From assembly GCF_018860365.1 (NCBI RefSeq), contig NZ_JAHKPO010000027.1:92179-156178 (forward strand): DNA of 64,000 bases, in the 5' to 3' direction. Made by a program: the position numbers and the translations under genes. How positions within the stretch are numbered: position 1 is the stretch's first letter; each line of letters opens with the position of its first letter. Shown piece by piece: positions 55,781 to 61,230 of this stretch. Below the pieces are notes generated by a model. The model saw only the letters and a list, made by a program, of their open reading frames with translations, was not told the origin of the DNA and did no database searches. This DNA is from Arenibacter algicola (GTDB taxonomy: Bacteria > Bacteroidota > Bacteroidia > Flavobacteriales > Flavobacteriaceae).

Positions 55781-56548
55781 TTAATTATTGACTTTTTTTA
55801 ATTGATTTTTTAGCTCATCCATAGATTCCTGCAATTGTCTTAGCAATCCCTTCTCGGAGGTGGCATCCACCCCAAAGGTTATTTTGCTACTAACTTGCCA
55901 CAGCTCTTGTATATCTTCTGTATTAACGCTGTATGGAGGATAGTTTTCATTTAAGGATATTAAGGAAATTACGGCCGGATTGGGAGATTTTTCAATTTTT
56001 TTCACCAAAACGGCATCCTGTAATACCACAACGTAAATTTTATTGGGACTAATATCCTTTAGACCTTCAACGGCTCTGGCCAATACCCATTCCCCTGGCT
56101 TTAGATTGGGCAACATACTGTCCCCTTCAATTTGGAAACCCCTATAAGTTGCATTTCTGAATTCTGGCAAGGGAATATCAAAAGCAGGCAGCTGTTTGTA
56201 CCAACTGGTGTCCTGAATATTTTGTGGGTATCCGGCTGCGGCTTTAGCGTTTACCAATACCATATTCTCGTTTTCGGATGAATTTACCGTAACCACCTTG
56301 GGAATAACACTGATATTTGTAACCGCTAGATACTTTTGGGAACTATCACCAAACAGCCAAAGTGGATTTATTTTGAATTGCTTGAGCAATTCCGCCACTA
56401 CTTTTCCCGATAATTTGGTACGCCCCCTTTCTATGTCCGCTGTGGTATTTGAAATACCAAGCAAGTTGGCAAAATCAGATTGGGTATACCCCAATTCCCG
56501 GCGTAAATCGGTAAAACGCTTGGTCACAATTTCCATATCCTCGTTCAT
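55781..56548 (-). CDS. XRE-family transcriptional repressor with S24 (LexA-like) domain
   Basis: About 255 residues from the ATG at 56548; an alternative is 56536, and codons further upstream add a stretch that does not align. The N-terminal helix-turn-helix (residues ~10-58) contains LGYTQSDFANLLGISNTTADIERGR. The C-terminal S24 peptidase domain has Ala105-Gly106 in AKAAAGYP as likely cleavage site, Ser144 in EGDSMLPNLKPGEWV and Lys183 or 184 in AVLVKKIE, spacings close to LexA. This suggests damage-triggered self-cleavage. It is divergent from a small QLSLF protein and a DNA-repair protein across a four-operator region, so autoregulation is likely. The RecA dependence is inferred. Confidence 0.9.
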   Translation of the reverse strand: MNEDMEIVTKRFTDLRRELGYTQSDFANLLGISNTTADIERGRTKLSGKVVAELLKQFKINPLWLFGDSSQKYLAVTNISVIPKVVTVNSSENENMVLVNAKAAAGYPQNIQDTSWYKQLPAFDIPLPEFRNATYRGFQIEGDSMLPNLKPGEWVLARAVEGLKDISPNKIYVVVLQDAVLVKKIEKSPNPAVISLISLNENYPPYSVNTEDIQELWQVSSKITFGVDATSEKGLLRQLQESMDELKNQLKKVNN

Positions 56549-56623
56549 TGTACAGTTTTTAAATTCATATAGTTGACATAGACATACCCCCCTATTTAGG
56601 TAAAAGACTATATCTAATAGCTT

Positions 56624-56652
56624 CAAATATACGTAATTTGGAATATATCCAA
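56624..56652 (-). promoter_or_regulatory. Promoter of the XRE/S24 repressor
   Basis: On the minus strand TTG (56652-56650), 18 bases, TATATTTG (56631-56624), an exact fit to the consensus TTG-N17-23-TAnnTTTG. Operator 1 (56637-56653) overlaps the -33 element and fills most of the spacer, so bound repressor would block this promoter. Confidence 0.8.
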
Positions 56653-56713
56653 AAAATTTATTGGACTATTTCCATAATTAGGAAATAATCCATATATTTG
56701 GAATAATTACAAA
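56637..56713. promoter_or_regulatory. Array of four repressor operators (GGA-N5-TCC)
   Basis: Four similar palindromes share the core GGA-N5-TCC. Copy 1 TTTGGAATATATCCAAA (56637-56653) is symmetric outside a five-base centre. Copy 2 TGGACTATTTCCA (56662-56674) is also symmetric. Copy 3 GGAAATAATCC (56681-56691) keeps the core. Copy 4 TTTGGAATAATTACAAA (56697-56713) has one mismatched arm. Left GGA cores start at 56640, 56663, 56681 and 56700, i.e. 18-23 bases apart, about two helical turns. The array covers both divergent promoters, as expected for a self-regulating repressor. Binding is inferred. Confidence 0.75.
56693..56700 (+). promoter_or_regulatory. Putative -7 box of the small-protein/TIGR03915 operon
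   Basis: TATATTTG matches TAnnTTTG exactly and overlaps the left arm of operator 4. It lies 22 bp before the small gene start. No TTG with standard spacing is present, consistent with a weak or activated promoter. Confidence 0.5.
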
Positions 56714-56722
56714 TATAAAATT

Positions 56723-56902
56723 ATGACTTTGGACGATTTGCATCAAACATTAAGTAGTCTAGCCTTTTCCGGGATGGAGGATAATGACTTTATCTCAATT
56801 AGTTCTAAGAAGGGGATTGGTTTGGCCAAAGGTCATTTAGTAAAGACCGAAAGAAGACGTTCAAAAAAAGAATTAAGTGTTCAACTAAGTTTATTTGATT
56901 AG
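56723..56902 (+). CDS. 59-residue protein with C-terminal QLSLF clamp-binding-like motif
   Basis: 59 residues, MTLDDLHQTLSSLAFSG at the start, a basic cluster TERRRSKKE (42-50), and an end QLSLFD with QLSLF at 54-58. That pentapeptide is the textbook beta-sliding-clamp-binding motif QL(S/D)LF. The gene lies two bases before the TIGR03915 gene and in the operator-controlled, repressor-divergent transcript, which supports it as real despite its size. No family is recognised. It may tether its partner to the clamp or compete with clamp users; this is inference from the motif and context. Confidence 0.7.
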   Translation: MTLDDLHQTLSSLAFSGMEDNDFISISSKKGIGLAKGHLVKTERRRSKKELSVQLSLFD

Positions 56903-56904
56903 TT

Positions 56905-57624
56905 ATGGAAAATCCTAAGGTTTTAATTTACGACGGCAGTTTCAATGGTTTTTTAACTACGGTTTTCAAAATTTTTGAGGAGAAAATCCCGGTAGCGAAC
57001 ATCCAAAAGAATAAGGAGCTTCAAAAAGGTCTGTTTTCGGAGGCAATAACTGTATTTACCCAAATGGATAAGGCAAGACGGGTGTGGAACAGCATTCAGA
57101 ACAAAAGTAATTCGGTCATTAAGTCTATTTATTTTGCCTTTTTAAGCGAAACAAAGGGCATTGAACTTCTTCTTTACCAGTACATCCGTTCTATGTATGC
57201 CAATCCCAATGAAGATCCTATAGAAGGAATGTCTGACATTATTTTAAAAATTCAGCAACACTCCAGAATGGTGGCTCGGGAAAAACATAGAATAGAAGCT
57301 ATTGCAAATTTTGAAATATCACAAGATCAGGTCTACTTTTCCAATGTTTCTCCTGGGTTTGATGTACTACCACTTATTTCTAAATACTTCAGGTCAAAAT
57401 TCCACGGTCAGGAATTTATGGTGTACGATCGCAAAAGAAAGTATGCCATTTATTACAACCTTTATACCGTTGAAATTATTTCCTTGGAATTATCGGCTTA
57501 TGATTGCACAGGAGATCTTTCCTATACCAACATAAAACAATTGATAAATAACAAATTGCACTCACATTCACGATATTCCGGAAAATCAGAGATGGCCGAT
57601 ATAGGTGAAAAGGCGGCGGTATAA
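56905..57624 (+). CDS. TIGR03915 family putative DNA repair protein
   Basis: 239 residues with the family pattern: VLIYDGSFNGFLTTVFKIFEEK at the N-terminus, SIYFAFLSETKGIELLLYQYIRSMY in the middle, and MVAREKHRIEAIANFEISQD then FHGQEFMVYDRKRKYAIYYN later. TIGR03915 proteins (DUF4130) are usually next to, or fused near, a TIGR03916 radical-SAM protein or a uracil-DNA-glycosylase-type domain, and are presumed to repair or modify DNA. No radical-SAM partner is next to it in this window. The gene is coupled to the QLSLF small protein. Its own catalytic residues are not assigned. Confidence 0.87.
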   Translation: MENPKVLIYDGSFNGFLTTVFKIFEEKIPVANIQKNKELQKGLFSEAITVFTQMDKARRVWNSIQNKSNSVIKSIYFAFLSETKGIELLLYQYIRSMYANPNEDPIEGMSDIILKIQQHSRMVAREKHRIEAIANFEISQDQVYFSNVSPGFDVLPLISKYFRSKFHGQEFMVYDRKRKYAIYYNLYTVEIISLELSAYDCTGDLSYTNIKQLINNKLHSHSRYSGKSEMADIGEKAAV

Positions 57625-58389: not shown

Positions 58390-61230
58390 ATGAAAATGAT
58401 TAATTACGAAGAGAATATTGAGGTTAAAGGCGCTCGTGTGCACAACCTTAAAAATATAGACGTTACCATACCCCGTGAAAAGCTGGTCGTTATTACCGGA
58501 CTTTCTGGAAGCGGCAAATCATCCTTAGCCTTTGATACCATATATGCTGAAGGTCAAAGGCGGTATATTGAGACTTTTTCGGCCTATGCCCGACAGTTTC
58601 TGGGGGGCTTGGAGCGCCCGGATGTGGACAAGATAGATGGTCTATCTCCGGTAATTGCCATTGAGCAAAAGACAACTTCAAAATCTCCCAGGTCCACCGT
58701 GGGCACCATTACCGAAATCTACGATTTTCTTAGACTTTTATTTGCAAGGGCCGGAGATGCGTACAGTTACAATACCGGGGAGAAGATGGTTAGTTATGAT
58801 GATGCGCAGATAAAGGAATTGATCATATCTTCCTATAGGGGAAAGAAAATAAATATACTGGCTCCTATCATTAAATCCAGAAAAGGACACTATAGGGAAC
58901 TATTTGAACAAATTGCCAAACAAGGTTTCGTTAAGGTAAGGGTAGATGGGGAAATCAAGGATATTATAAAGGGCATGAAAGTGGACCGTTATAAGACCCA
59001 TGATATAGAGATAGTTATTGACCGACTCAAAATTGAGGAGAGTACCGAATTGGACAAACGTATTTCGGAAACTATAAATACGGCCATGTACAGTGGAGAA
59101 AATGTACTGATGATTTTGGAAGAAGGTACGGATGAGCCCCGGTATTTTAGTAGGGATTTAATGTGTCCAACCACTGGAATTTCCTATCCTTCACCCGAAC
59201 CCAATACTTTTTCCTTTAATTCACCAAAAGGCATGTGTCCCGATTGCAATGGGCTTGGACATATTTATGAGGTCAATGAAAACAAAATTTTCCCAAATAA
59301 AAAGCTGTCCATCAAAGGGGGTGGCATTGCACCCTTGGGCGAATATAAAAATTCTTGGGCCTTTAAACAGATAGAAACTATTGCGCAGCGATATAATTTT
59401 GAACTTACCACCTCAATTGCAAAAATACCTGAGGACGCTATTAGTGTATTGCTCTATGGCGGAAAGGAAAGTTTCGAGGTAGACTCAAAATCTTTGGGGG
59501 TAAAGCGCCTCTATAAAATAGATTATGAAGGCATTTCCAATTTTATCAAAAGTCAATTTAATGAGGCCAACTCCACGTCCATAAAACGTTGGGCCAAGGA
59601 GTATATGGACAAAATTAAATGTCCAACCTGTGCAGGTACTAGGTTAAAACAAGAATCCTTAAATTTTAAAATAGACAACAATAATATTGCCGATCTATCC
59701 AATTTGGATATTGCGGAATTGGCGGATTTCTTTAATGGCCTAGAAAAAAAGTTGGAAGGCAATCAATTAAAAATTGCAGAGGAAATTATAAAGGAAATCA
59801 AAACAAGGGTCCAATTTCTTTTGGATGTTGGCCTGGATTACCTCTCCTTAAATAGAAGTAGTAAATCCCTTTCAGGGGGGGAAGCACAGCGTATTAGATT
59901 GGCAACCCAAATTGGCTCGCAATTGGTAGGTGTTCTTTATATTCTGGATGAGCCCAGTATTGGTCTGCACCAAAGGGATAACGAACGATTGATAAAGTCC
60001 TTGGAATCGCTCAGAGACCTCGGTAATTCGGTTATTGTGGTAGAGCATGACCGCGATATGATAGAACGTGCAGACCATGTCATAGATATTGGACCAAAGG
60101 CCGGAAAGCATGGAGGGGAAATAATTTCGGAAGGTAAGCCTGATGATCTAAAAAACCATAATACCCTAACAGCCGATTATATTTCCGGAAAACTAAGAAT
60201 AGAAGTTCCAAAAAAACGTAGGGAAGGAAATGGAAACAGCTTGGAATTATCCGGTTGTTCCGGAAATAATCTTAAAAATGTTTCTGTACGATTTCCCTTG
60301 GGAAAAATGATCGGGGTAACCGGTGTTTCGGGCAGTGGAAAATCTACCTTGATCAACGAAACCCTATACCCTATTTTAAATGCTTATTATTTTAATGGAG
60401 TAAAAGTCCCTATGCCCTACAAGAAAATTAAGGGCTTGGAACATATAGACAAGGTTATAGATATTAACCAGTCTCCTATTGGAAGAACACCAAGGTCCAA
60501 TCCTGCCACCTACACCGGTGTCTTTAGTGAAATTAGATCTCTTTTTGCCAAAACACAAGAAGCTTCGATTAGGGGTTACAAGCCCGGTCGTTTTAGTTTT
60601 AATGTAACAGGAGGGCGTTGTGAAACTTGTCAAGGAGGAGGTCTTAGGGTAATTGAAATGAATTTTCTTCCCGATGTATATGTTGAATGTGAGACCTGTA
60701 ATGGGAAACGCTTTAACAGGGAAACCTTGGAGATAAGATATAAGGGTAAATCCATTGCCGATGTGCTGGAGATGACTATTAACGAATCGGTGGAGTTTTT
60801 TGAAAATATCCCCAAAATTTATCGCAAGTTAAAAACTATTCAGGATGTGGGACTGGGATATATTTCTTTGGGCCAGCAATCTACTACCCTGTCCGGTGGA
60901 GAAGCGCAGCGAATAAAGTTGGCTACAGAACTTTCCAAAAGAGATACAGGAAATACCTTTTATATATTGGACGAACCAACAACAGGCCTACACTTTGAAG
61001 ATATCAGGGTATTGATGCATGTGCTTAACAAGCTGGTAAACAAGGGAAATACCGTTCTGGTAATTGAACACAATATGGACGTGATAAAAATGGTAGACCA
61101 TATTATAGATATAGGGTACGAAGGTGGTCGAAATGGTGGTATGGTAGTTGCGGAAGGTACTCCGGAGGAAGTAGCCCTTGATAAAAAGAGTTACACCTCA
61201 AAATTTTTAAGAAAAGAATTAGGTTTGTGA
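58390..61230 (+). CDS. uvrA: UvrABC system protein A (excinuclease subunit)
   Basis: 946 residues, full length. It is the damage-recognition ATPase of nucleotide excision repair, acting as a dimer with UvrB. Two ABC modules are visible: Walker [15 protein letters not shown] (~33) and [13 protein letters not shown] (~646), with signatures [12 protein letters not shown] (~495) and [12 protein letters not shown] (~837). Zinc-site cysteines are in [15 protein letters not shown] and [20 protein letters not shown] plus CETCNGKRF. It is divergent from the SH3-like gene. Its closeness to the repressor/TIGR03915 module marks this stretch as a repair neighbourhood, though no GGA-N5-TCC operator is seen upstream of uvrA. 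Confidence 0.97.

Follow-up and report, generated by a model that had tools for sequence, protein, structure and literature searches.

Which regulator acts on the 174 bp at positions 56549-56722 of the 64,000-nucleotide stretch of Arenibacter algicola DNA analyzed here (the window), and which genes does it serve? This intergenic stretch separates a gene for an XRE/S24 repressor from a divergent open reading frame (ORF) of 59 amino acids, and an initial annotation had placed in it four palindromes with the same core, GGA-N5-TCC, at 18-23 bp spacing. The starts indeed lie 23, 18, and 19 bp apart, and three sites, none of which was assigned a strand, are exact: operator 1 (56640..56650), operator 2 (56663..56673, +23 bp), and operator 3 (56681..56691, +18 bp). 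The fourth is not, as putative operator 4 (56700..56710, no strand, +19 bp) has the sequence GGAATAATTAC, whose right half reads TAC instead of TCC. When this stretch was simulated 100,000 times with a first-order Markov model, no run yielded three exact sites within the 174 bp (97,791 runs had none, 2,186 one, and 23 two); the whole window holds 12 exact matches, including the 3 in the array. We are confident that this four-site region serves as the switch for a DNA-damage repressor that has already been described in marine Flavobacteriaceae.

The sites lie on 2 promoters. The repressor promoter, TTG-N18-TATATTTG, was found as annotated on the minus strand (56624..56652), where operator 1 overlaps it. 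For the opposite promoter, at which the fourth copy had been placed, the divergent operon has a -7-like element, TATATTTG, on the plus strand (56693..56700), but no -33 TTG was found 17-21 bp upstream of it, leaving this promoter as half a consensus.

The repressor (255 aa; 55784..56548, minus strand) combines an N-terminal HTH_3 domain (PF01381) with a C-terminal Peptidase_S24 domain, both above the Pfam cut-off. It is 99% identical to its counterpart in Arenibacter palladensis, and a search of the genome turned up no other S24 match. Residues A105-G106, S144, and K183 were invariant in all 99 distinct orthologs. A canonical LexA was considered and rejected: a Pfam scan to an E value of 0.1 returned, besides S24, only HTH_3, HTH_19, HTH_31, and Pou, and no winged-helix domain. 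Flavobacteriaceae are reported to have a non-canonical LexA, a CI-like S24 repressor that binds GGA-N5-TCC, as supported in Salegentibacter agarivorans by gel shifts, mutated motifs, and induction with mitomycin (reference protein WP_075324850.1; PMC8565304). The same paper describes substitution tests in which a changed dyad abolishes binding, and two or more instances of the motif in several promoters (PMC8565304). Our protein shares with it the HTH_3 plus S24 architecture, the Ala-Gly and Ser-Lys residues, and GGA-N5-TCC at its own promoter (PMC8565304), and every feature of the family that we tested was present. Judged by these features rather than by a tree, it is very likely an ortholog of the Bacteroidetes non-canonical LexA. 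With the motif published and the family features in place, the annotated reading of a LexA-like S24 repressor that regulates itself through GGA-N5-TCC is therefore right, and backed by the published relative (PMC8565304) and by sites before SOS genes, but already known; the novelty read from a consensus unlike other LexA boxes falls away, as GGA-N5-TCC had already been published for Flavobacteriaceae (PMC8565304).

To see how far the layout extends, we compared 110 orthologous loci, comprising the best 80 of 350 named relatives and 30 loci from a family sample, each of the latter from another genus; some of the 110 are perhaps from the same species. Conservation of the palindromes, which the annotation had proposed as a check, was found in 95 of 110 loci, where all three exact sites are retained with spacings of 22/23 and 18 bp (78 of the 80 nearest named relatives and 17 of the 30 family-sample loci). 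In the 15 deviating loci, nine repressors are 59-67% identical. Among 85 distinct arrays, site 3 is followed at +19 by GGA-N5-TAC in 78 and by GGA-N5-TGC in 1, so that the imperfection of the fourth site is itself conserved; in the other 6, an exact GGA-N5-TCC at +23 from site 3 replaces it. The divergent-promoter element TAnnTTTG keeps a fixed place in all 85, and the -7 element of the repressor lies at a constant distance from site 1 in 68 of the 70 distinct arrays with enough sequence. The layout is thus strongly conserved, including its consistently imperfect fourth site. The 6 loci with the exact site at +23 (L085, L163, L164, L166, L168, and L174) are Flagellimonas/Allomuricauda-like and represent a natural switch of operator 4.

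A genome search for TTTGGA-N5-TCCAAA, as the annotation had suggested, was uninformative: with up to 2 mismatches it gave 1,179 places, against 548 for the reversed control. The exact 17-mer occurs at 7 places, one of them the array, and no SOS gene could be recognized by ORF reading beside the other 6, so that the flanking TTT and AAA are no guide to the regulon. Pairs of sites were more telling. The genome was searched for tandem sites spaced 12 to 41 bp apart with a T before the first site; the 24 rows returned were read as 16 distinct places: 4 at 19 bp, 2 belonging to the array, and 10 at other spacings. One 19-bp pair lies upstream of a GIY-YIG exonuclease gene and of a divergent short ORF with a UmuC-like polymerase gene, another upstream of an SRAP gene and of a divergent ORF of 85 amino acids, a third upstream of a radical-SAM (SplB-like) gene, and the fourth upstream of dinB. 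The radical-SAM gene behind its pair we take to be the SplB of the PMC8565304 paper. Operators had been predicted before dinB and other repair genes, and these tandem sites bear that out; sites before DinB/UmuC, radical-SAM (SplB-like), SRAP, and GIY-YIG exonuclease genes are shared with the regulon described for the non-canonical LexA (PMC8565304). Read by eye, 9 of the 10 places with other spacings fall inside ORFs, one of them (L032) well within the frame of a uvrB-like gene. The tenth, with two exact sites 40 bp apart (L033:1501-1552), lies about 110 bp upstream of an ORF that looks dnaB-like by eye.

The 19-bp spacing also follows the repressor across the family. In a sample of 149 genomes, 54 have this repressor type (E below 1e-70) and 95 do not; exact 19-bp pairs occurred in 50 of the 54 and in 2 of the 95, while the reversed 19-bp pattern occurred in 8 and 3, respectively. 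Pairs at 21 bp were present in 32 of 54 versus 33 of 95 genomes and are therefore mildly enriched with the repressor too; as a 21-bp spacing preserves the reading frame, its own background inside genes may be raised. Sampling one pair locus per genome, 22 of 29 lay at most 370 bp from homologs of LexA, DinB/UmuC, SplB, or the exonuclease, and 7 had no SOS homolog. Exact 19-bp pairs mark the regulon; with up to 2 mismatches allowed, 19-bp pairs in the Arenibacter genome were uninformative (198 versus 173 in the control).

Several repair genes carry no such mark. An operator had been predicted before recA, but no exact site was found upstream of it, the sole exact site in the 3.8-kb locus sitting within the coding match; this fits the report that recA is not induced in S. 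agarivorans (PMC8565304). Likewise, no exact GGA-N5-TCC was found upstream of uvrA (58390-61230 of the window), close to the repressor locus, or upstream of one of the three Y-family polymerase genes (L048), and the genome yielded no UmuD-like S24 protein. The short ORF that precedes the UmuC-like polymerase gene behind its 19-bp pair (L025:1503-1838, plus strand; 111 residues as searched) has no Pfam match, and its listed frame begins within the operator pair, so its true start probably lies later. The ORF divergent from the SRAP gene (L030:1537-1791, plus strand; 85 residues as searched) has no Pfam match either. Both short genes are candidates for uncharacterized SOS proteins.

The sites and their spacing and conservation, the features of the repressor, and the association with the regulon were all observed directly. 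We hold it to be highly probable that the non-canonical LexA uses these sites as its operator array, which separates the repressor gene from a divergent SOS operon. For this species, we infer binding, cleavage, the role of site 4, and, from the spacing only, cooperativity; for a relative, it has been published that the repressor binds GGA-N5-TCC and that target genes are induced (PMC8565304). In undamaged cells, repressor dimers would occupy sites 1-3. Site 1, which overlaps the -33 element, would keep the repressor promoter blocked, and site 3, perhaps with site 4, would block the divergent promoter. Upon DNA damage, RecA filaments would trigger self-cleavage of the repressor at Ala105-Gly106, opening both promoters until newly made repressor resets the system. 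Occupancy of site 4 with help from site 3 would give the divergent operon weaker or earlier-released control.

Site 4 is probably a weak operator dependent on site 3, and we lean towards the view that this site, which departs from the published dyad at one base, is filled only when its neighbor assists. By analogy with the published dyad substitutions (PMC8565304), it may even be left unbound altogether. A different and rather unlikely explanation is that GGA-N5-TAC belongs to the initiator or promoter of the divergent operon and is kept for RNA polymerase, not for the repressor. In all 85 distinct arrays it stands directly behind TAnnTTTG, where it would span the probable transcription start, and substitution of the dyad abolished binding in the published tests (PMC8565304). 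However, when we scanned 81 related sequences outside the arrays, TAC stood at that distance after only 8 of 880 TAnnTTTG and is therefore no general promoter element. Moreover, the distance between sites 3 and 4 equals the 19-bp pair spacing of other SOS promoters, and in 6 of the 85 arrays an exact GGA-N5-TCC at +23 takes the place of the TAC site, both of which argue for an operator. That the repressor is instead of the prophage CI type, running a local phage switch rather than an SOS regulon, is highly improbable: its DNA-binding half is of the HTH_3 type, as in phage repressors, and it gave a weak DicA match, but those of its neighbors that were searched proved to be TIGR03915 and uvrA, 17 of the 30 sampled genera and 78 of the 80 named relatives retain the array, and pairs occur at dinB, radical-SAM, SRAP, and exonuclease genes.

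The array nevertheless resembles the operators of a phage repressor. The lambda repressor CI, also an S24 protein, acts at OR and OL, where several dimer sites of unequal strength lie about 20 bp apart between divergent promoters. The array described here likewise has multiple sites, presumably of unequal strength, about 20 bp apart between divergent promoters and an S24 repressor. Unlike CI, this repressor is an SOS regulator of chromosomal genes that uses fixed GGA-N5-TCC dyads, and its cooperativity is suggested by the spacing. Neither the 23/18/19 array nor its conserved imperfect fourth site was found in the passages of PMC8565304 consulted, and the 19-bp pair rule was likewise absent there. 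Two GGA-N5-TCC at 19 bp would offer a simple signature by which to read out the SOS regulon in a large group of mainly marine bacteria, and the naturally imperfect operator a way to learn how a CI-like repressor grades the SOS response.

The first gene of the divergent operon (56723..56902, plus strand) encodes the 59-aa protein, which consists of an N-terminal helix, a variable basic linker, and a C-terminal QLSLFD. It has no Pfam or NCBIfam match, and nothing recognizably about it was found in the literature searched. The structure model contains one helix (residues 3-18), with the rest at low confidence (mean pLDDT 71.1). Its QLSLF belongs to the C-terminal QLxLF type, the consensus clamp-binding motif (PMC4549789). 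The next gene (56905..57624, plus strand) encodes a TIGR03915/DUF4130 protein of 239 aa (149.2 bits against a cut-off of 112.25; model positions 1-195 of 243), which in many relatives stands beside the radical-SAM family TIGR03916; that family gave no match in this genome at an E value of 0.001. A script assigned the divergent gene of the 110 loci to radical-SAM TIGR03916 in 36 cases, to a small gene in 47 (53-75 residues from the likely start, with QLxLF or a close variant at the C-terminus), and to neither in 27, a mixed class in which several loci have an unrelated neighbor or a short flank. L075 is misplaced in this last class, as its radical-SAM gene lies further off and is cut by a short flank.

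The small and the radical-SAM proteins resemble each other at both ends. Each of the 36 radical-SAM proteins has QLxLF at its C-terminus, followed by at most five residues. In an alignment of 36 of the 41 distinct small proteins, M1, Q54, L57, and F58 are invariant, and L10, A14, G17, D20, and L55 occur in at least 90%; with identical numbering, L10, A14, and D20 are invariant in the 25 radical-SAM proteins aligned out of 33 distinct ones (one outside that alignment, L132, has V14). In a profile comparison, residues 1-31 of the small family aligned with residues 1-31 of the TIGR03916 type at an E value of 2e-4, with a probability of only 47%; the control comparison with TIGR03915 gave six columns at an E value of 0.08. 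Individually, 29 of the 41 distinct small proteins beat 95% of their own shuffles against the radical-SAM N-terminal profile and 12 did not, and 2 of the 29, including the copy in the window, had their best register outside the N-terminus. As the window's copy has no N-terminal match of its own, the kinship rests on the small family. We rejected the 59-aa protein as a TIGR03916 member proper, given that the radical-SAM core is absent and that the part of the small family that can be aligned is limited to residues 1-31.

Could the ORF be a chance or decaying frame without function? It has no family match, its own sequence fails to match the radical-SAM N-terminus, and 15 loci have TIGR03915 but no recognized small gene. 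Against this, 12 Arenibacter sequences, compared in 66 pairs, gave a median dN/dS of 0.32 (codons 1-22, 0.21; linker, 0.52; last nine codons, 0.16), 27 Eudoraea pairs gave 0.25, and the 36 aligned sequences share the four invariant and five nearly invariant positions given above. We therefore consider a functionless frame very hard to credit; the rates point to purifying selection on both ends of the small gene. TIGR03915 is constrained in Arenibacter as well (median dN/dS 0.086, 50 usable pairs).

In the genomes sampled, the radical-SAM family occurs only together with its partner. In the 149 genomes, TIGR03916 was found in 32 and TIGR03915 in 47, and all 32 also have TIGR03915. Of the 15 genomes with TIGR03915 only, one match is a 45-position fragment (G132) and one falls below the family cut-off (G126); all 14 besides G132 have this repressor, and their TIGR03915 lies no more than about 1 kb away from it. 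No match to TIGR03916 was found in the 8 small-gene genomes among 30 fetched. TIGR03915 itself differs between the two settings: among the 89 of 110 loci in which it was in view, HxPKRYWKYLSE occurs in 28 of 28 proteins beside a radical-SAM gene and in 0 of 61 without one, 2 of which have a looser form, although these counts share ancestry. We also asked whether the clamp motif had moved to TIGR03915 where the small gene is absent, and did not see it in any of 15 such proteins. Small-gene loci as a single clade were rejected on the repressor tree (99 rows; p-AU 1.1e-6). On that tree, rather than one of TIGR03915, the small label changes at least 4 times counting only small and radical-SAM rows, and 7 times over all rows, 3 of them forced by well-supported branches, with gain and loss indistinguishable.

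These patterns suggest that the small gene may be what is left of TIGR03916 after deletion of its core, retained to serve TIGR03915 as a clamp adaptor. In the full form of this proposal, which we offer as possible but somewhat short of an even chance, TIGR03916 would have lost its whole enzyme core, and the helix and clamp-binding tail would survive as an SOS-induced adaptor of about 60 residues linking TIGR03915 to the replication clamp. Such hollowing would have taken place on more than one occasion within the Flavobacteriaceae, accompanied by loss of the conserved C-terminal HxPKRYWKYLSE from TIGR03915. In the small protein made from the divergent operon, the helix may hold TIGR03915 and the tail may hold the clamp. 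If true, this would separate the enzyme role of the radical-SAM protein from its clamp-tether role, in two uncharacterized repair-associated proteins; HxPKRYWKYLSE would be the radical-SAM contact, and TIGR03915 would work without the radical enzyme.

TIGR03915 and TIGR03916 presumably correspond to the COG1573-COG4277 pair. That pair has been reported to be SOS-regulated (PMC8565304), and similarly the divergent operon here holds TIGR03915 behind operators of the SOS repressor; it differs in that TIGR03916 has no match in this genome and a 59-aa gene stands in its place. While the core of our finding is a new member of a published system (PMC8565304), the fixed array with its imperfect fourth site, the 19-bp rule, and above all the putatively shrunken radical-SAM gene were not found in the literature searched and look new. 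In Maribacter sp. ACAM166 (L167), the array and the start of the radical-SAM gene persist, with a stop after 14 codons; the rest of the gene was not seen in the 1.5 kb examined. A search of TIGR03915 against PDB sequences up to an E value of 1 gave one match, which at 0.33 is not meaningful. Its AlphaFold2 model (mean pLDDT 85.9) gave nothing in Foldseek at an E value of 0.001 or below, the best match being a phosphatase (5.1e-3, TM 0.34); several of the best weak matches (E values from 5e-3 upward, TM at most about 0.35) fall among DHH-type phosphatases or nucleases, RecJ being one example.
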